Source: Chitinophagaceae bacterium (lineage in GTDB: Bacteria; Bacteroidota; Bacteroidia; Chitinophagales; Chitinophagaceae). From it: a stretch of 50,772 nucleotides of DNA. Made by a program: the position numbers and the translations under genes. Positions 11,281 to 38,724 of this stretch are shown piece by piece; the stretch's first letter is position 1, and each line of letters begins with the position of its first letter. The notes below the pieces were generated by a model. That model was not told the origin of the DNA. It did not search any database and saw only the letters and a program-made list of their open reading frames with translations. The DNA lies in the NCBI GenBank assembly GCA_013140985.1, contig JABFRU010000043.1:1-50772 (forward strand). Reading direction: 5' to 3'.

Positions 11281-13356
11281 ATGGCGCACAACGATAAACG
11301 AAAAACAATTGCAAGGGATATCAGCTGGCTTTCTTTTAATGCAAGAGTATTGCAAGAAGCAGCTGACCCAACTGTTCCCCTTCGTGAACGTATCAGGTTC
11401 CTCGGCATTTTTTCCAACAATATGGATGAATTTTTCCGGGTAAGAGTAGCCACTTTAAAAAGAATGATCCAGTTTGGGAACAAGGCCAATATGCATTTGG
11501 AAAATGATCCGCAACAGATCATTGACGAGATACAAATGACAGTATTGAACCAGCAGGGAGAATTCAACCGGATTTGGGAAGAAGTGATGCAGTTGCTGAA
11601 TGAACAAAAAATATTCCTGCGGACAGAAAAAGAATTGAATACCGAACAGCAAAATTTTGTCCGCAATTATTATGAAGAAGAAGTGAGTTCTGATATTATT
11701 CCTTTAATGATCGAAAGCATTCCTGAATTCCCCGCATTAAGAGATAAATCAATTTATCTCGCCGTGGTGATGTGGAAGAAAGAAAGCGCCTTGAAAAGAA
11801 AATATGCATTGATAGAAATTCCGAGCCGCACATTGGGACGTTTTTCTATTTTACCCTCTCCTTCCGCCGATGAACACCATATAATATTACTGGAAGATGT
11901 GATCCGCTTCAACCTTCCGGATATTTTTTCTTATTTCGGTTATGACCAATACCAGTCGCATATTTTCAAAGTGACCCGTGATGCTGAAATTGACATTGAC
12001 GAAGATCTTACCACCAACATCATACAAAAATTAGAGAAAGGATTAAAGAACCGCCGCAAAGGAAAACCTGTTCGTTTTGTATATGACAGGGAAATGGATC
12101 CGGGCTTGCTGGAATATTTAGTACGAAGATTGAACCTTTCTAAAAGAGATAACCTGATACCCGGAGGCCGCATACACAACTTCCGCCACTTCATGGATTT
12201 TCCTGAACAGGTATTCAAAGAAAAAAGAAATCGTAAGAAACCATTTGATCACCCGCAGTTGACAACAAGAAGAGTATCTGATGTAATCCTGGAAAAAGAT
12301 ATGATGCTTCATTTTCCCTATCATTCTTTTTTGCCATTGATAGATCTTATCCGTGAAGCTGCATTTGATCCTGATGTTACTACTATCAAGATCACTTGTT
12401 ATCGCCTCGCCCCTGCATCCAAGATCATCAATGCATTGATCAATGCAGTGCGAAATGGAAAAGAAGTGGTGGTAATGCTTGAACTAAGAGCAAGGTTTGA
12501 AGAAGAAGCCAACATTGAATGGAAGAACAGGCTGGAAGAAGAAGGCGCCAAAGTGCTGATAGAGATTCCCAACATGAAAGTGCACTCCAAACTTTGTGTC
12601 ATTAAGAAAAAAACAAAGGATAACAATTCCATAATGTATGGTTTTGTAAGTACCGGTAACCTGAACGAGAAAACAGCGAGATTATATGGTGACCATTGCC
12701 TGCTGACATCTAATCAAAAAATAATGGCTGATGTGAACCGGATATTCAGCTTTTTGGAACAACCAAAAACAGGCATGAATTTCCTGAGAGATTGCAAGGT
12801 CATCATCCCCAGCCCTTCTATTGCAAAAAAAGAAATGCTGAACCTTGTTGATGAAGAAATAAGACAGGCCCGCAAGAAAAAACCGGCTGCTATTACTTTA
12901 AAAATGAATTCGCTTAGTGATGAAGAAATGATACAAAAGTTATACGAGGCAGCAAAAGCCGGTGTTCAGATCAAATTAATTATCCGTGGTATCTTTTGCA
13001 TGCTGTCAGAACATAAAAAATTTGAGAAACCTGTCCGGGCCATCAGCATCGTAGATGAATACCTTGAACATGCAAGAGTGTGGGTATTTCATAACAAAGG
13101 CAAAGAAAAAGTTTATATATCTTCGGCCGACTGGATGCTGAGAAATATGGAACATCGTGTTGAAGCCACTTGTCCTATCTGGAACGAAGAGATACAACAG
13201 GAATTAAAAGATATTTTGAACATTCAATTGCAGGATAATGTAAAAGCAAGATGGCTGGATAATAATTTGGAGAATGAATATGTCCGTACCACCAAAAAGA
13301 AAATCCGATCACAGGTAGAGACCTATAACTACCTCTACAAAAAAACACAGATATAA
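11281..13356 (+). CDS. ppk1: Polyphosphate kinase
   Basis: Polymerises the ATP gamma-phosphate into inorganic polyphosphate, reversibly. It has 691 aa with the four-domain PPK1 layout: N-terminal RDISWLSFNARVLQEA, a middle domain with FSNNMDEFFRVRVATL, and two phospholipase-D-like catalytic domains. The phosphorylated histidine is His435 (MKVHSKLCVI), and a second conserved histidine is His604 (VWVFHNKGKE). The downstream ppx starts 3 bp after its stop, so synthesis and degradation enzymes are co-transcribed. Confidence 0.96.
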   Translation: MAHNDKRKTIARDISWLSFNARVLQEAADPTVPLRERIRFLGIFSNNMDEFFRVRVATLKRMIQFGNKANMHLENDPQQIIDEIQMTVLNQQGEFNRIWEEVMQLLNEQKIFLRTEKELNTEQQNFVRNYYEEEVSSDIIPLMIESIPEFPALRDKSIYLAVVMWKKESALKRKYALIEIPSRTLGRFSILPSPSADEHHIILLEDVIRFNLPDIFSYFGYDQYQSHIFKVTRDAEIDIDEDLTTNIIQKLEKGLKNRRKGKPVRFVYDREMDPGLLEYLVRRLNLSKRDNLIPGGRIHNFRHFMDFPEQVFKEKRNRKKPFDHPQLTTRRVSDVILEKDMMLHFPYHSFLPLIDLIREAAFDPDVTTIKITCYRLAPASKIINALINAVRNGKEVVVMLELRARFEEEANIEWKNRLEEEGAKVLIEIPNMKVHSKLCVIKKKTKDNNSIMYGFVSTGNLNEKTARLYGDHCLLTSNQKIMADVNRIFSFLEQPKTGMNFLRDCKVIIPSPSIAKKEMLNLVDEEIRQARKKKPAAITLKMNSLSDEEMIQKLYEAAKAGVQIKLIIRGIFCMLSEHKKFEKPVRAISIVDEYLEHARVWVFHNKGKEKVYISSADWMLRNMEHRVEATCPIWNEEIQQELKDILNIQLQDNVKARWLDNNLENEYVRTTKKKIRSQVETYNYLYKKTQI

Positions 13357-13359
13357 AAA

Positions 13360-14256
13360 GTGAGACTGGGAGCCATTGACATTGGAAGCAACGCCGCAAG
13401 ATTATTGATATCAGATGTGATCTCCGGTCCGCAAAACATTCCTGAATTCATTAAAACCGTTCTTGTCCGGGTTCCTCTTCGTCTCGGTTTCGACGTATTT
13501 GACAAAGGCGAGATATCTGCTGCCAAAGTGGAGAAGATCGTCAAAACCATCAAATCGTATAAACTGTTACTCGATGTTTATGAAGTAAAACATCTGAAAG
13601 CCTGTGCCACATCAGCCATGAGAGATGCAACGAACGCAAACGAGATCATCAAAAAGGTAAAAGCTGAGACGGGTATCACCATACATATCATCAGCGGGCA
13701 GGAAGAAGCTTCTTTTATTTATGAGAATCATATTGCCGAGAATATGAAAAGCGATGAATCTTATTTATACATTGATGTAGGCGGTGGCAGTACCGAACTT
13801 ACTTTTTTCAGCGATGGTAAATTGATCTCTAAAGAATCCTTCAATATAGGAACGATTCGTTTGCTTAAAAACCAGGTGACCGAAGCCACCTGGGATGAAA
13901 TGAAAGAGTTCATCACTAAAAAAACAAAAGGCTATCATCATGTCACTGCTATTGGCTCCGGCGGTAACATCAATAAAATTTTCAGTCTCTCCAACAGGAA
14001 AGAAGGAAAACCACTTAGCCTTGATCTGCTGCGGGATTATTATAAGGAATTCAGCAATATGACCATGGCACAAAGGATCAGTTTATATAAACTCCGTGAA
14101 GACCGGGCCGATGTAATCGTACCTGCATTATTAATTTACATTAATGTGATGCGCTGGGCTGATGCCGAAGAAATATATGTTCCCAAGATCGGTCTTGCGG
14201 ATGGCTTGATACATACTTTGTATGAAGAGGTGAAGCTAAAGGAGATCGAAGTATAG
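13360..14256 (+). CDS. ppx: Exopolyphosphatase / Ppx-GppA family phosphatase
   Basis: A cytosolic ASKHA-fold phosphatase of 298 aa that releases phosphate from polyphosphate or hydrolyses pppGpp. All key motifs are intact: phosphate-1 DIGSNAARL (residues 7-15), ATSAMRDATN (83-92), catalytic ISGQEEA (111-117), and phosphate-2 DVGGGSTEL (139-147). It has only the two core domains, without the C-terminal HD-like domain of E. coli Ppx. The start is a GTG at 13360, 3 bp after ppk1. It is a useful in-window reference for the altered exported homologue at 34254. Confidence 0.93.
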   Translation: MRLGAIDIGSNAARLLISDVISGPQNIPEFIKTVLVRVPLRLGFDVFDKGEISAAKVEKIVKTIKSYKLLLDVYEVKHLKACATSAMRDATNANEIIKKVKAETGITIHIISGQEEASFIYENHIAENMKSDESYLYIDVGGGSTELTFFSDGKLISKESFNIGTIRLLKNQVTEATWDEMKEFITKKTKGYHHVTAIGSGGNINKIFSLSNRKEGKPLSLDLLRDYYKEFSNMTMAQRISLYKLREDRADVIVPALLIYINVMRWADAEEIYVPKIGLADGLIHTLYEEVKLKEIEV

Positions 14257-31888: not shown

Positions 31889-32887
31889 TTACGACATCAT
31901 CTTCACTACCATTTCTTTTAATAAAGAAGCATCTTCGGTTCCGGCATTACCTACTCCCACTGCTTTAAGATTATATTGATGCAGTAGCAGGAGAACATTT
32001 TCAACACCTGTATATGTATAAAGATGGGCCGCCTTCACATAATCTTTTATAAAATAGGGATTGACACCAATATTCGCTGCGATAGTTTTTTCGTCGGTTG
32101 TGCCAGCGCCAAACACCATAAATACTTTGCTGAAGAAACTATACAGTGATGGCAATATTAATTGTATCGGTGCGGCCTTTGGATTTGCTTCAAAATATTG
32201 AATGATGCGGATACTTCTTGCAAGATCTTTTGCTGCCATAGCAGTCTGCAATTCAAAAACATTAAAGTCCTTGCTTACCCCAATATATTTTTCAATATCG
32301 TCTTCGGTAATATTTTTCCGCTGGCCAAGGTTTACCGATAATTTATCTATCTCGTTTTCTATCCTTGTCAAATCATTCCCGATATGATCAACAAGAAGTA
32401 ACAACCCTTTTTGAGAAATGGTCAGCCCTTTTGATCGCAATAATTCTTGTGTCCATTCCGGCAACTGGCTCTCATACATTTTCTTTGTAGTGAGCAGTAT
32501 TCCTTTTTCTTTTACCAGTTTGGCAAACTTCTTTCTCGCATCGAGTTTTTTTTCTTTGTAGGATACAACAAACACAGTAGAACTTAGCGGATTTTCGACA
32601 TAAGACTCTAACTTTTCAACATCCCGCATTTGTTGTGCTTCTTTTAACAACACTACCTGTCGTTCTGCAAACATGGGATATCGCCGACAGGCATTGATCA
32701 CATCGGGCCAGTTAGCATCTTTCCCATAAAAAACAGTGAGGTTAAATGAAGCTTCGCTTTCATTCAGAATATGATGCTCAGCATAATCAATGGCTTTATC
32801 AATAAAATAATCTTCTTCTCCTTCCAGCCAGTATAATGGCTTGAAAGAGCCCTTCTTCCAGTCATTTATTATCTTTTCCACACTCAT
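31889..32887 (-). CDS. holA: DNA polymerase III delta subunit
   Basis: A clamp-loader subunit that opens the sliding clamp. This 332-aa protein shows the HolA pattern: PLYWLEGEEDYFIDKAIDYA at the start, VVLLKEAQQM, VFVVSYKEKKLDARKKF, then LIGN-like IGNDLTRIENEIDKL and IEKYIGVSKDFNVFEL, and a helical C-terminal domain. Motifs are weak in this family, but their order and spacing fit well. It is a single gene converging on ribF, with 21 bp between the stops. Confidence 0.9.
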   Translation of the reverse strand: MSVEKIINDWKKGSFKPLYWLEGEEDYFIDKAIDYAEHHILNESEASFNLTVFYGKDANWPDVINACRRYPMFAERQVVLLKEAQQMRDVEKLESYVENPLSSTVFVVSYKEKKLDARKKFAKLVKEKGILLTTKKMYESQLPEWTQELLRSKGLTISQKGLLLLVDHIGNDLTRIENEIDKLSVNLGQRKNITEDDIEKYIGVSKDFNVFELQTAMAAKDLARSIRIIQYFEANPKAAPIQLILPSLYSFFSKVFMVFGAGTTDEKTIAANIGVNPYFIKDYVKAAHLYTYTGVENVLLLLHQYNLKAVGVGNAGTEDASLLKEMVVKMMS

Positions 32888-33111: not shown

Positions 33112-34089
33112 ATGACAGAAACTAATTATCCCTCCGCAACCCCATCCAGTCAAACTCAGCCTGCGAAAAACAGGAATAAGAGTTATAAAAACCTGGCTAT
33201 TGGCCTATTGGCAGCAGGACTGCTCGGCACCTGGGGCTATCTTTTGTATGACAAAAATAAATCAGATAAAACAATAAGTGACCGGGATGCTACTATCGTA
33301 AAGAAAGATGCTGATTATGGCAACCTGCAAACAGATTTCAACTCTGCATTAGCAAGATTGGATTCTATAACCGGTGCTAATAATTCTCTGCAGGGTGATA
33401 AAAGCAATTTGCAAAAAGAGATCGATGCTAAAAAAGTTGAGATCCGTAAAATACTGAACGATAAAAATGCTACTGCCACACAACTGGCGAAAGCAAGAAC
33501 ATTGATCACTGAATTGAATGATAAGATCACTGGTCTTGAGGTAGAAGTAGCAAGACTGACAGGCGAGAACCAGACATTGACTGTTGCTAATACTACATTG
33601 CAGCAAGAGAAATCAGACCTCGAAACAAACCTGGCTATGTCAGCTTCAGAGAAAGAAGAATTAGCTAAGACCGTAGATGTAGCTTCTACGTTCAGCGCTT
33701 CTAATATCCAGGTAACTCCTGTGGATGAAAAAGGCAGCGGTAAAGAAAAAGTAAATACTAAAGCAAAAAAAGTGGATAAGCTCCTGGTGTCATTTGACGT
33801 AGAGAACAGGATCGCACAATCTGGTCCGGCTGATATGTACCTGATCGTAACAGCTCCTGACGGAAAAGTAATTTCAGAAGGTACTATGCTGAATACAAGG
33901 ACTGATGGCGACAAACCATTCACAGCAAAAGTTCCGGTTGATTATACACAGGGTCAGCGTAAAAATATCCAGTTCCCTATCAGGCAGACAGACTTCCTGA
34001 CTGGTGATTATAAAATTGAAATTTATCATAATGGCTTCAAGATCGGTGAAGGTGTAAGAAGCCTTAAAAAAGGTGGTTTATTCGGTTAA
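33112..34089 (+). CDS. Membrane-anchored coiled-coil protein A of the Ppx-like module
   Basis: A 325-aa protein of unknown family. A short Ser/Pro/Gln-rich cytoplasmic start is followed by one transmembrane helix (residues 27-45, LAIGLLAAGLLGTWGYLLY). A long heptad-patterned coiled coil (about 51-190) comes next, then a C-terminal domain (about 218-325) with beta-strand patterns (KLLVSFDVENR, GDYKIEIYHNGFKIGEG). The helix, the junction TWGYLLYDKNK and the C-terminal domain recur in the protein at 35403 (TWVYHLYDKTK; NYRLQVFHNGYLIGE), so the two are paralogues. The exported Ppx-like protein lies between them. The coiled coil and C-domain should face the periplasm. A terminator follows it. Confidence 0.75.
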   Translation: MTETNYPSATPSSQTQPAKNRNKSYKNLAIGLLAAGLLGTWGYLLYDKNKSDKTISDRDATIVKKDADYGNLQTDFNSALARLDSITGANNSLQGDKSNLQKEIDAKKVEIRKILNDKNATATQLAKARTLITELNDKITGLEVEVARLTGENQTLTVANTTLQQEKSDLETNLAMSASEKEELAKTVDVASTFSASNIQVTPVDEKGSGKEKVNTKAKKVDKLLVSFDVENRIAQSGPADMYLIVTAPDGKVISEGTMLNTRTDGDKPFTAKVPVDYTQGQRKNIQFPIRQTDFLTGDYKIEIYHNGFKIGEGVRSLKKGGLFG

Positions 34090-34110
34090 AAGCAGTTAAC
34101 TCCTGCAAGA

Positions 34111-34146
34111 AAGCCGTTTCCCGTTCTATGGGAAGCGGCTTTTTCT
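34111..34146 (+). terminator. Terminator after coiled-coil protein A
   Basis: AAGCCGTTTCCC pairs with GGGAAGCGGCTT (12 bp, one G-T), followed by TTTTCTTT. It implies that the first gene of the module is at least partly transcribed separately from the next two. Confidence 0.8.
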
Positions 34147-34253
34147 TTGAACTCAGTTAGCCACATTTTTTTCACATAATTGCCAATGAGTGTATTTCGG
34201 AAGTAAAGCTGCATGGCATTGTAGTACTTTTATCAGAGCAAAACTACTAACCC

Positions 34254-35393
34254 ATGTCAGTTACCCGTTACAGCCGGTTCTTAATACCGGCATTACTGCT
34301 ATTAGCAGGCTATAACAGCATTGCGCAAACCAGTATCAATCCCAAATACAATAACTCCACTATTTATACCGGTATTGAAGTAGGATCAAAAGGTGTAAAG
34401 ATGAGTGTGATCGAAATTGGAAAGAATGCCCAGAGCAGCGGCGCTTTCAATATCATTAAAGACAGTTCTGTCAATACCGATTTCATTTCATTTTCTGATC
34501 CAACATTCGCAGCTACATTAAATAGTTTTTGTGGTCTTTATAAAACAGCCACCAATGATTACCATGTCCCTTCCAAAAGAATTTTTACAGTGATCAGCAG
34601 TGGTGTGAAGATGCAGGCTGAAAAAGATAAGAAGACAGTATGGATCAATAATCTCATTGATTCATTCCGCATAAAAATAAATGAACCGGATCGCCAGGTA
34701 GAAGTAATAGATATCACAAAAGAAGCCATCCTCTCCCATCTTGGAATTGTGCCGGAAGCAAGAAGGTTCAATACCTTTCTGATTGATATTGGCAGCGGCA
34801 ATACCAAAGGCGGTTTCTTTCCTTTTGGCACCATTGAAACCTTCCGCCTTTTTGGGTTGAACTGGGGAACAAAAAGTGTTGCGAATGCTACAGAAAAAAG
34901 ATTGGATGGTGATAACACACTGTCGAATTATAACAAGCAGTTATACAAAGTTCTTGCCGCTGCAGAAAACACAGATATAGTGTATGCAGTTAATGCAAGT
35001 GGTTCTTATCCGCTCAGTGATAATATAGCTATCAGTGGTGGTATTGCATGGGCTGTTGCCACACTCACTCATCCTGAATTGCTGGATAATCCTGTAGTGG
35101 CTGTTACTTATGCTGAGGTCGCAACCTTCTGCGAAAAAATATATAACAACCCCGAGGCTCTTGCTCCGGCTGCATTGGCTCTAAATATCAATTACAAAGA
35201 CCAGAAGGAAACAGTATTGAAAGAAACGGGTCGTGTACATAAAGTTTTCGATCAGCGATCATTGATGGCAGGCGCAGGATTGTTGCTAAAGATCATGCGG
35301 CAGTTTGCTGCAGCACACGAGACAAAAGCATTTTACCTGGTCAAGAACGGGCAGGTAGGCTGGGTATCGGCCTATGTGAATGAGAATAAGTGA
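34254..35393 (+). CDS. Exported Ppx/GppA-like ASKHA-fold protein
   Basis: A 379-aa protein with a cleavable-looking signal peptide (residues 1-25, ending NSIAQ) on an ASKHA fold. Motifs line up with the cytosolic Ppx at 13360: IEVGSKGVKM (41-50) for phosphate-1, VISSGVKMQAEKD (113-125) for ATSAMRDATN, VIDITKEAILSHLG (151-164) for IISGQEEASFI, and LIDIGSGNTKGGF (176-188) for YIDVGGGSTEL. SGGIAW (261-266) would be the adenosine motif. The metal-binding Glu of phosphate-2 is replaced by Lys, and only one Glu of the EEA catalytic pair remains. It is therefore a Ppx relative sent to the periplasm with an altered active site; no function is known. The flanking paralogues suggest a complex. A weak -7 box (TACTTTTA, 34225-34232) precedes it. 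Confidence 0.7.
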   Translation: MSVTRYSRFLIPALLLLAGYNSIAQTSINPKYNNSTIYTGIEVGSKGVKMSVIEIGKNAQSSGAFNIIKDSSVNTDFISFSDPTFAATLNSFCGLYKTATNDYHVPSKRIFTVISSGVKMQAEKDKKTVWINNLIDSFRIKINEPDRQVEVIDITKEAILSHLGIVPEARRFNTFLIDIGSGNTKGGFFPFGTIETFRLFGLNWGTKSVANATEKRLDGDNTLSNYNKQLYKVLAAAENTDIVYAVNASGSYPLSDNIAISGGIAWAVATLTHPELLDNPVVAVTYAEVATFCEKIYNNPEALAPAALALNINYKDQKETVLKETGRVHKVFDQRSLMAGAGLLLKIMRQFAAAHETKAFYLVKNGQVGWVSAYVNENK

Positions 35394-35402
35394 TCATTAA
35401 AA

Positions 35403-36296
35403 ATGAAAGACACAAGAACAATTCTTCTCGGTTTATTATCCGTTGGCCTTGTGGCCACCTGGGTCTATCATCTTTACGATAAAACAAAATACACAGCTGC
35501 CAAAACAGCTACAGAAATAAAAGATCCATCCTCTTCAATCCAAACCTTGCAGGACTCTTTGCAAAAAGTATATGCATCCACTGTAAATAATCTCGGGGCT
35601 CAATTAGATTCAGTAAAAAGTACAACCGGCTTACTACAAAGTGAACTGATCGCAAAACTCGATGAAATAAACAGGCTGAAAACGGAGATTGCTGAATTAT
35701 TAAGAAAAAATAATGCGAACAAACAAGACATTGATCTTGCAGGAAAGAAGACAGCAAAATTTCAACAATTGGTATCAGAACTTCCAAAAAAGAACGCTTC
35801 AACTCCGGAGCAAACAAAAGAAATAAGCCCCCCAGTTATTGAAAACAACGGTGCAGAGATCAAACCGGTTATTCTGTCTTCAGAAAAAACAACCGGCTCC
35901 TCTATTTTTACAGCCAGTGATATCAGGCTCACTCCTATTAAAATAACAGAGGATAAAGAAGAAGAAACAAATCTGACAGAAAGTATAAACAAACTCGTCA
36001 TTTCTTTTGCTGTAAAAAACAGTACAACCGATTACAATAATGCCGAAGTTTTTGCCATCATCACTCAACCCGATGGCAAAGTGATGCAAACAGATATGTG
36101 GGAATCGGCCTCCATCACCACACATGACTTCGGCAGAAAGACATATACAAGAAAAGTAAAGTTTGAATACCAGAAAGGAGAAACAAAACACCTGCAGCTC
36201 ACTTTAAAGCCTGAAGATTATGAAAAAGGTAATTACAGGTTGCAGGTCTTTCACAATGGCTACCTGATCGGGGAAACAACAAAAAGACTGAACTGA
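35403..36296 (+). CDS. Membrane-anchored coiled-coil protein B of the Ppx-like module
   Basis: A 297-aa paralogue of the protein at 33112. It has a transmembrane helix at residues 6-24, a shorter coiled coil (about 41-120), a polar linker, and the same C-terminal domain (about 190-297, ending NGYLIGETTKRLN). It starts 9 bp after the Ppx-like gene, so the two are surely co-transcribed. The shared start TWVYHLYDKTK matches TWGYLLYDKNK of protein A. No known family is recognised. Confidence 0.75.
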   Translation: MKDTRTILLGLLSVGLVATWVYHLYDKTKYTAAKTATEIKDPSSSIQTLQDSLQKVYASTVNNLGAQLDSVKSTTGLLQSELIAKLDEINRLKTEIAELLRKNNANKQDIDLAGKKTAKFQQLVSELPKKNASTPEQTKEISPPVIENNGAEIKPVILSSEKTTGSSIFTASDIRLTPIKITEDKEEETNLTESINKLVISFAVKNSTTDYNNAEVFAIITQPDGKVMQTDMWESASITTHDFGRKTYTRKVKFEYQKGETKHLQLTLKPEDYEKGNYRLQVFHNGYLIGETTKRLN

Positions 36297-37938: not shown

Positions 37939-38724
37939 ATGAAAAAATATTTGCCCATAGCATTAATGATCTGTCTGGTAAGCTGTAAAAACAAGGATAA
38001 ACCGGTTGTAGTTGTGAACAACAATGCACCTGCCGTCATGGGACATTCCATTGTCAACACATACAAACATGATACTTCTTCTTACACCCAGGGCTTGGTT
38101 ATATATAATGGTGCGATGTATGAAGGCACGGGTAACTACGGCTTTACAAAACTCAGGAAAGTTGACATGACAACGGGTAAGATGGAAAGAGAGATATCGC
38201 TTGATAAAAAATATTTTGGTGAAGGCATTACCATTTTAAGAGATACTGTTTACCAACTTACCTGGAAGGAAAAAAAGGTTTTTGTTTACAGGCTGAATGA
38301 TTTTTCCAAGATAAAAGAATACGATATAGCTACTGATGGATGGGGGTTGACCAATGATGGAACAAATCTTATTGTAAGCACCGGCGGCAGCGATCTTTAT
38401 TTTTATGACCCTTCCACATTTAAATTACTAAAGACACAAACGGTAACTGAAAGCGGTAGCCCGGTCAATAATATCAACGAACTGGAATACATTAATGGTT
38501 ATGTATATGCCAACCAATACCTGGCAGCTTATATTCTTAAGATCGATACGGCTACCGGTATTGTAGTGGCGAAAGCTGATGTTAGCAGCATGTGGCAACG
38601 GATAAAAGCCATTGATCCGAATGCTGATGTTCCTAATGGCATTGCATATGATGCCGCCACTAAGAAGATCTACATCACAGGTAAATTATGGCCTGAATTA
38701 TATGAAGTGCAGTTTAGTCAATAG
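37939..38724 (+). CDS. Glutaminyl-peptide cyclotransferase, lipoprotein
   Basis: Converts N-terminal glutamine of proteins into pyroglutamate. The family shares the beta-propeller plant-type enzyme pattern: SSYTQGLVIYNGAMYEGTG, GEGITILRDTVYQLTWKE, DGWGLTNDGTNLIVSTG, NELEYINGYVYANQY and DVPNGIAYDAATKKIYITGK. A lipoprotein signal (residues 1-16, LVSC) places it on the periplasmic side of a membrane, where exported Bacteroidota proteins with Gln just after the signal cleavage site would be substrates; several in this window have Gln at or near that site (for example SYSQ|Q). The length (261 aa) fits. Confidence 0.9.
   Translation: MKKYLPIALMICLVSCKNKDKPVVVVNNNAPAVMGHSIVNTYKHDTSSYTQGLVIYNGAMYEGTGNYGFTKLRKVDMTTGKMEREISLDKKYFGEGITILRDTVYQLTWKEKKVFVYRLNDFSKIKEYDIATDGWGLTNDGTNLIVSTGGSDLYFYDPSTFKLLKTQTVTESGSPVNNINELEYINGYVYANQYLAAYILKIDTATGIVVAKADVSSMWQRIKAIDPNADVPNGIAYDAATKKIYITGKLWPELYEVQFSQ

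Follow-up and report, generated by a model that had tools for sequence, protein, structure and literature searches.

We report that a stretch of 50,772 nucleotides from a Chitinophagaceae bacterium (contig JABFRU010000043.1 of assembly GCA_013140985.1), hereafter the window, codes for a protein, B, that joins a predicted export signal to a fold resembling that of the Ppx/GppA enzymes of the ASKHA superfamily, and whose active site, judged by its residues, is altered yet not dead by inspection. B (positions 34254-35393, plus strand, 379 residues) is the middle of three same-strand open reading frames (ORFs), all present where an earlier interpretation of this DNA, the sequence-only reading, had placed them. 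It is preceded by A (33112-34089, plus strand, 325 residues) and followed by C (35403-36296, plus strand, 297 residues), a membrane-anchored coiled-coil protein with a C-terminal beta-sandwich. The comparison of genomes supports a genetic tie of B to one of these flanking membrane proteins, C. We propose that B binds, and probably hydrolyses, a phosphoanhydride polyanion outside the cytoplasm, with C as its dedicated inner-membrane partner, a proposal to which we give about an even chance.

The kinship of B with Ppx is visible only through a broad sequence profile together with the predicted fold. No Pfam or NCBIfam family claims the protein: a Pfam scan returned no match at E values up to 1, and the exopolyphosphatase model of NCBIfam, at 11.7 bits (E 0.11), fell far short of its cut-off of 307. 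The loci that we compared came from a pattern scan of all genomes and comprise the best 80 of 383 relatives; B and the relatives from 61 of these 80 loci make up alignment A3 (62 sequences). Searches of solved structures with the single sequence, or with the A3 profile, recovered nothing related to B. Comparison by hhalign of the narrow profile A1 with one Ppx gave a probability of 13% over 57 columns, and a broad profile raised this to 97% (E 5e-11), the motifs aligning in register. The correspondence of motifs, one by one, that the sequence-only reading had noted between B and the genome's own cytosolic Ppx (13360-14256) is real. That Ppx, itself recognized by Pfam at E 4.6e-42 with its DVGGGSTE and ISGQEEA motifs intact, shares the motifs of B and their order and differs in having no signal peptide. 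An AlphaFold2 model of B displays over residues 34-379 the two-domain fold of Ppx/GppA (PF02541; for example 1t6c, 3cer, 6pc0 and 7epq), including the predicted fold of the N-terminal catalytic domain of Ppx. It carries the marks of ASKHA proteins, namely an RNase-H-like fold in duplicate along with the phosphate-1, connect, phosphate-2 and adenosine motifs. In a structural search with this model the 19 best rows were all Ppx/GppA structures, as were the best Foldseek rows.

These structural ranks also bear on the idea that B might be a bacterial ecto-apyrase (NTPDase) of the usual kind, so diverged that it is no longer recognized as one. The NTPDases are the second structural match of the model; nevertheless, their representatives (GDA1_CD39 family; rat NTPDase2 and Legionella NTPDase1) score below most of the Ppx/GppA rows, the GDA1_CD39 model of Pfam has no match in B, and that family is likewise absent among the 25 of 33 families listed for the relatives of B. 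B also has a lysine (K185) where NTPDases probably have Gln, and we know of no coiled-coil partner of an NTPDase. We regard an apyrase origin as quite improbable. The NTPDases do, however, qualify the premise of the sequence-only reading that ASKHA enzymes work in the cytosol, which overlooks them, as they are presented in PMC7954995 as ASKHA-related ecto-enzymes.

The motifs of the active site, all on the plus strand, follow those of Ppx in register. The phosphate-1 motif, E42-K49 (EVGSKGVK, 34377-34400), aligns with DIGSNAAR of Ppx, its first residue being Glu in 58 of the 62 sequences of A3 and Asp in the other four. K119 (in SSGVK, 34608-34610) occupies the place of the catalytic Arg and is Lys in 60 of 62 members of the B subfamily. 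The phosphate-2 motif, D178-K185 (DIGSGNTK, 34785-34808), is in register with DVGGGSTE, and K185 lies at the place of the metal-ligand Glu, in keeping with the Glu-to-Lys change first noted at this site. In the adenosine-type motif, S261-W266 (SGGIAW, 35034-35051), S261, G262, G263 and W266 are invariant. Equally invariant, in 62 of 62, are E157, D178, K185, K46, K49 and K207. The sequence-only reading had also given DITKEAI as the counterpart of the catalytic ISGQEEA region; this detail was misread, and the loss that it implied does not hold: the invariant E157 (34722-34724) aligns with the second Glu of EEA, which in the E. coli enzyme we take to be E121. PMC5859850 gives E121 as the catalytic Glu of E. 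coli Ppx, and the catalytic Arg of a mycobacterial Ppx is given as Arg84 in PMC3411833. B thus appears to keep the catalytic Glu and the first Asp of the metal-ligand pair of a phosphoanhydride hydrolase, with the second ligand, Glu in Ppx, replaced by Lys throughout. In E. coli that pair is numbered D143/E150 in PMC5417653 and D141/E148 in PMC5859850, and the former source reports that mutations of E121, D143 and E150 leave residual activity.

With Lys standing in for the catalytic Arg as well as for the second ligand of the metal, several invariant or near-invariant lysines (K46, K49, K185 and K207, as well as K119) come to lie in and near the motifs. By its residues, the site could have lost its chemistry, altered it, or become independent of the metal. 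That Glu and Asp are retained favors hydrolysis, and the lysines point to a different handling of charge. One might therefore see in B a pseudo-enzyme, with the Ppx cleft binding a polyanion such as polyphosphate, a phosphorylated glycan or a lipid head group uncut, and with B and C together acting as a binding or sensing device. The invariant Lys at the second ligand, the equivalent of which (E150) is described as needed by E. coli Ppx (PMC5417653), and the replacement of the catalytic Arg by K119 both favor this idea. Conversely, a pure binder has no obvious need for both the Glu and the Asp, which are invariant in B and present in 62 and 61, respectively, of 62 rows of the wider set considered below. 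Furthermore, the E150 place is variable within Ppx-like folds: in the Ppx-like ASKHA protein Rtg2p of yeast it is reported as Gln165, rather than Lys as in B, with E137 and D158 kept (PMC5417653). On balance we consider a binder that does not cut possible but less likely, and prefer to see B as a probable hydrolase. Unlike B, Rtg2p, a signaling protein of the retrograde pathway, is not known to be exported.

Export of B is supported by its N-terminus, which has the basic start and hydrophobic core of a Sec-type signal peptide ending in AQ (residues 1-24, 34254-34325, plus strand, with the predicted cut before Q25), much as originally read. Among the rows of A3 with a residue there, Gln follows the predicted cut in 61 of 61 and Ala precedes it in 55 of 61. 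This corresponds to the Q-rule described for Bacteroidetes, by which most substrates of signal peptidase I begin with Gln, which is then cyclized (PMC5837995; PMC10653852); B, with its predicted signal peptide followed by Gln, conforms to it. AlphaFold2 models the first 30 residues with low confidence (block means of 54-63) and places them ahead of the domain. The opposite view, that the signal peptide is a misread cytosolic helix and B a cytosolic Ppx paralogue, draws on the usual cytosolic site of Ppx and on nothing else; it is hardly credible given the strictly conserved Gln, the position of the N-terminus outside the modeled domain and the lipoprotein-type N-termini of some distant relatives.

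The case for C as the partner of B comes from the distribution of the genes. Of the 35 genomes in the genus of the window, 17 have B, and the same 17 have true C (at least 44% identical); A (at least 51%) is found in 26, nine of which have A without B. Among the 17 genomes with B, 15 keep the order A, B, C on a single contig, and two have a contig that breaks off immediately before B. Among the 80 loci, a gene of the A/C family adjoins B in 67, of which 65 are full-length C and two (L112 and L115) are cut by the contig end; C lies downstream of B on the same strand in 57 cases, upstream in seven, and upstream on the other strand in one. A, in contrast, lies within the fetched locus in only 23 of the 80. 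Had homologues of B occurred mostly without the flanking genes, the sequence-only reading would have lost its footing; C retains its place by this measure, whereas A fails as a fixed third member. In the 13 genomes in which no A/C gene adjoins B, ten have an A-C tandem elsewhere, two have A only and one has neither.

The association also holds over the genomes of the family. Counting as B those matches that score 500 bits or more, together with a fragment at the edge of a contig (G776, 188 bits) and without the TPR-type and weaker matches, and as C those of at least 250 bits to the A4 profile, a threshold with a small gap between C and A (lowest C 250.6, next 242.7), we found B in 37 and C in 35 of 244 family genomes: both in 31, B only in six, C only in four and neither in 203 (Fisher p 6e-29, ignoring shared descent). 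By genus (n=101), both occur in 17, B only in three, C only in two and neither in 79, with a p value of 2e-14 that likewise ignores shared descent. Three of the four genomes with C only are 79-90% complete and the fourth (G254) 99%. The A/C profile as a whole is matched in 230 of the 244 genomes versus the 37 with B.

A and C are indeed paralogues of like architecture, as had been supposed (29% identity, E 8e-30): in both, a hydrophobic stretch at the N-terminus is followed by a middle part resembling a coiled coil and by a C-terminal domain. Nevertheless, they form distinct lineages: in a tree built on the last 150 residues of each protein, with identical stretches removed, all 23 A proteins form one clade (support 1.0) that contains none of the 63 C proteins. 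Relatives of A occur in 22 of the 23 genera of the order, also without B. In the window, B and C are separated by 9 bases and A and B by 164, and the latter gap holds a strong intrinsic terminator 3' of A (34108-34144, plus strand; -29.1 kcal/mol, z -6.1 for 34090-34150, with a T-rich tail). We applied a hairpin test to gaps longer than 30 bases across the loci. Of the 29 same-strand gaps between an upstream A/C gene and B (A in 22, C in seven), a hairpin of less than -10 kcal/mol that precedes a run of T is present in 21 of 22 following A, the exception (L040) having overlapping A and B as called, and in none of the seven following C. Where C lies downstream of B, 38 of the 57 gaps had the length needed for the test, and one has such a hairpin. 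This pattern suggests that A is probably a separate transcript and that B and C form an operon.

The sequence-only reading had joined A, B and C into one complex with two anchors for B. The conserved A-B-C order in the window's genus speaks for such a complex, as do the paralogy of A and C and the A-C tandems found where B lies elsewhere in the genome; these tandems suggest that A and C may work together. Yet A is spread over the order, often without B or C, is parted from B by the terminator, and lies outside most of the fetched B loci. We therefore deem the two-anchor complex rather unlikely: of the two proposed anchors, C tracks B and A is probably no dedicated part of the B system. Probably A and C are an old tandem, of which C goes with B, and B stands between them in the window's genus. 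C is thus the likely partner of B, and A not clearly one.

A Pfam scan of A and C gave only weak matches below the cut-offs, mostly to coiled-coil families, and a profile of C matched mainly coiled coils among solved structures. In the AlphaFold2 model, C (all features on the plus strand) comprises an N-terminal hydrophobic helix (residues 4-31, 35412-35495), probably the membrane helix by model and sequence, coiled-coil helices (within residues 42-125, 35526-35777) and an Ig-like beta-sandwich (residues 169-297, 35907-36293). We posit that B would descend from the Ppx/GppA branch and be soluble in the periplasm, exported via Sec, cut by signal peptidase I and, by the Q-rule, probably capped with pyroglutamate. 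C, from the same putative operon, would span the membrane with a single helix and bear, on a coiled-coil stalk, an Ig-like head able to keep B near the inner membrane, where the cleft of B might close on a phosphoanhydride polyanion, perhaps polyphosphate or nucleotides by analogy with Ppx and the NTPDases. As few residues of C lie ahead of its membrane helix, a sensor signaling inward through C is hard to see. This speaks against a sensing pseudo-enzyme and against that part of the original proposal of a reshaped periplasmic Ppx fold, which otherwise agrees with the export signal, the predicted ASKHA fold and the reshaped site.

B does not stand alone. Searched with profile A1, 56 of 298 genomes from the order contain matches, as do 26 of 395 from the phylum; three of these matches (L169-L171), which by their own sequences look like cytosolic Ppx or sugar kinase, were excluded. 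By their N-termini the remaining matches are TPR-fused with a signal peptide, carry a signal peptide only (family f25), or begin with a membrane helix or lipoprotein-type start (the TM/lipoprotein group); the last group is tied to B by partial matches (E about 1e-10 to 1e-15). We assembled a superfamily set of 62 rows, comprising 11 from A3, 16 B proteins of other genomes, eight TPR, 12 f25 and 15 TM/lipoprotein rows, and excluding L120 and L121 in addition to L169-L171 (L160 and L174 are the same protein). In this set E157 is invariant, D178 is kept in 61 and K185 in 60, the exceptions all being in the TPR group (L138, L150-L154, L172 and L173), where two of the eight phosphate-2 loops are without K185. 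The K49 position is Asn in all 15 TM/lipoprotein rows, and the SGN of the phosphate-2 loop is variable in f25. Export of a Ppx-built protein with an altered, strictly conserved site appears to occur in many Bacteroidota. The neighbors differ between the exported groups, and the partnership with C is a feature of the B subfamily. On viral contigs, none of 108 pattern matches proved to be a relative.

What is already known is the fold, the superfamily and the existence of extracellular ASKHA-related hydrolases, the NTPDases; in the open-access papers searched we did not find an exported Ppx-like family, or an exported ASKHA protein of the B kind, described. B is set apart from Ppx/GppA by its predicted export, by the two Lys replacements, by its pairing with a membrane coiled-coil protein and by its presence in part of the Bacteroidota genomes searched. 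Going further, and with distinctly less confidence than in the proposal for B and C, we suggest that B may belong to an undescribed extracytoplasmic ASKHA set of several Bacteroidota families, with members that bear just a signal peptide, are fused to TPR, or are lipoproteins or anchored in the membrane. Its site would combine the catalytic Glu with Asp-x-Gly-x-x-x-x-Lys, the Lys replacing the second metal ligand, and would run the ASKHA open-close cycle, in a compartment that lacks ATP, on polyphosphate or another phosphate polyanion. One of these families would be anchored to the inner membrane by a partner drawn from an older coiled-coil protein.

Several observations weigh against a hydrolytic B with C as its dedicated partner. 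The change at K185 removes a residue needed by E. coli Ppx (E150), and hydrolysis may be lost with it. As the periplasm is generally held to lack ATP, the substrate is not obvious. The curated cut-off of PF02541 is not reached: B is unmatched, 13 of 62 relatives match Ppx-GppA at a best E of 0.014, and a distant relative in f25 attains 25.2 bits, under the cut-off of 27. K119 is not kept in the distant exported groups, being Lys in four of the eight TPR rows, fewer than two of the 12 in f25 and four of the 15 in the TM/lipoprotein group, against 13 of the 16 B proteins of other genomes. In 20 regions of the distant groups, with three genes inspected on each side, a clear A/C-like gene was seen in one (L187, E 3.7e-30) and a weak match in one more (L184, E 0.002). 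Six of the 37 B genomes have no recognized C, and in family f4 one genome (G057), whose B is 41% identical, is without any match to A or C, and another (G071) has no A/C gene near B. To these are added the neglect of shared descent in the co-occurrence statistics and the narrow margin between C and A scores.

Individual genomes offer further observations. Within the window's genus, 15 genomes of 1.5-2.1 Mb have no match to B, and seven of these keep A; in G007, a genome of 4.0 Mb that is 100% complete, A, B and C are all unmatched. Cultured relatives, Ferruginibacter paludis and Lacibacter luteus, are among the sources of the loci (L082 and L108). A same-strand ORF of 162 residues lies between B and C in two genomes (L027 and L028, the same places as L049 and L048), and that of L027 has no Pfam match. 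The B gene of L105 (5929-7080) is broken into two ORFs, one of 97 and one of 207 residues, by a frameshift, an error or decay of the copy, and L114, a metagenome-assembled genome titled Streptomyces griseus, has a Chitinophagaceae-like B locus and is probably a mislabeled bin. Near the distant relatives, a membrane-anchored ASKHA protein in L189 (4924-10624) stands beside protein-kinase-like, PP2C and VWA genes, a SpoIIM-family gene occurs in L185, and a transporter-like gene is close by in three of four f25 regions (L180, L181 and L183, and not L182), that of L183 being of the MFS type.

In the window, the gene upstream of A belongs to the DNA polymerase III delta family and is divergent from A (31889-32887, minus strand); the gene downstream of C, for an M43 peptidase, is on the opposite strand. 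About 1.6 kb past C lies a gene for a plant-type glutaminyl cyclotransferase (37939-38724; PF05096, E 1.4e-83) with a lipoprotein-like N-terminus; cyclotransferases of this type cap Q-rule substrates, such as B would be. The cytosolic ppx is directly 3' of a polyphosphate kinase gene (both within 11281-14256), and this adjacency suggests that the host probably makes and degrades polyphosphate in its cytosol.

Ppx and GppA are known as cytosolic enzymes of polyphosphate and alarmones. An exported branch in which the catalytic Glu is kept and a metal ligand has become a strictly conserved Lys would represent this fold re-tooled for the cell envelope. The analysis singles out C as a candidate partner, distinct from its older paralogue A, and raises the questions of which phosphate-bearing ligand in the Bacteroidota periplasm such proteins may act on, and whether a Lys can replace a metal ligand in an old site.

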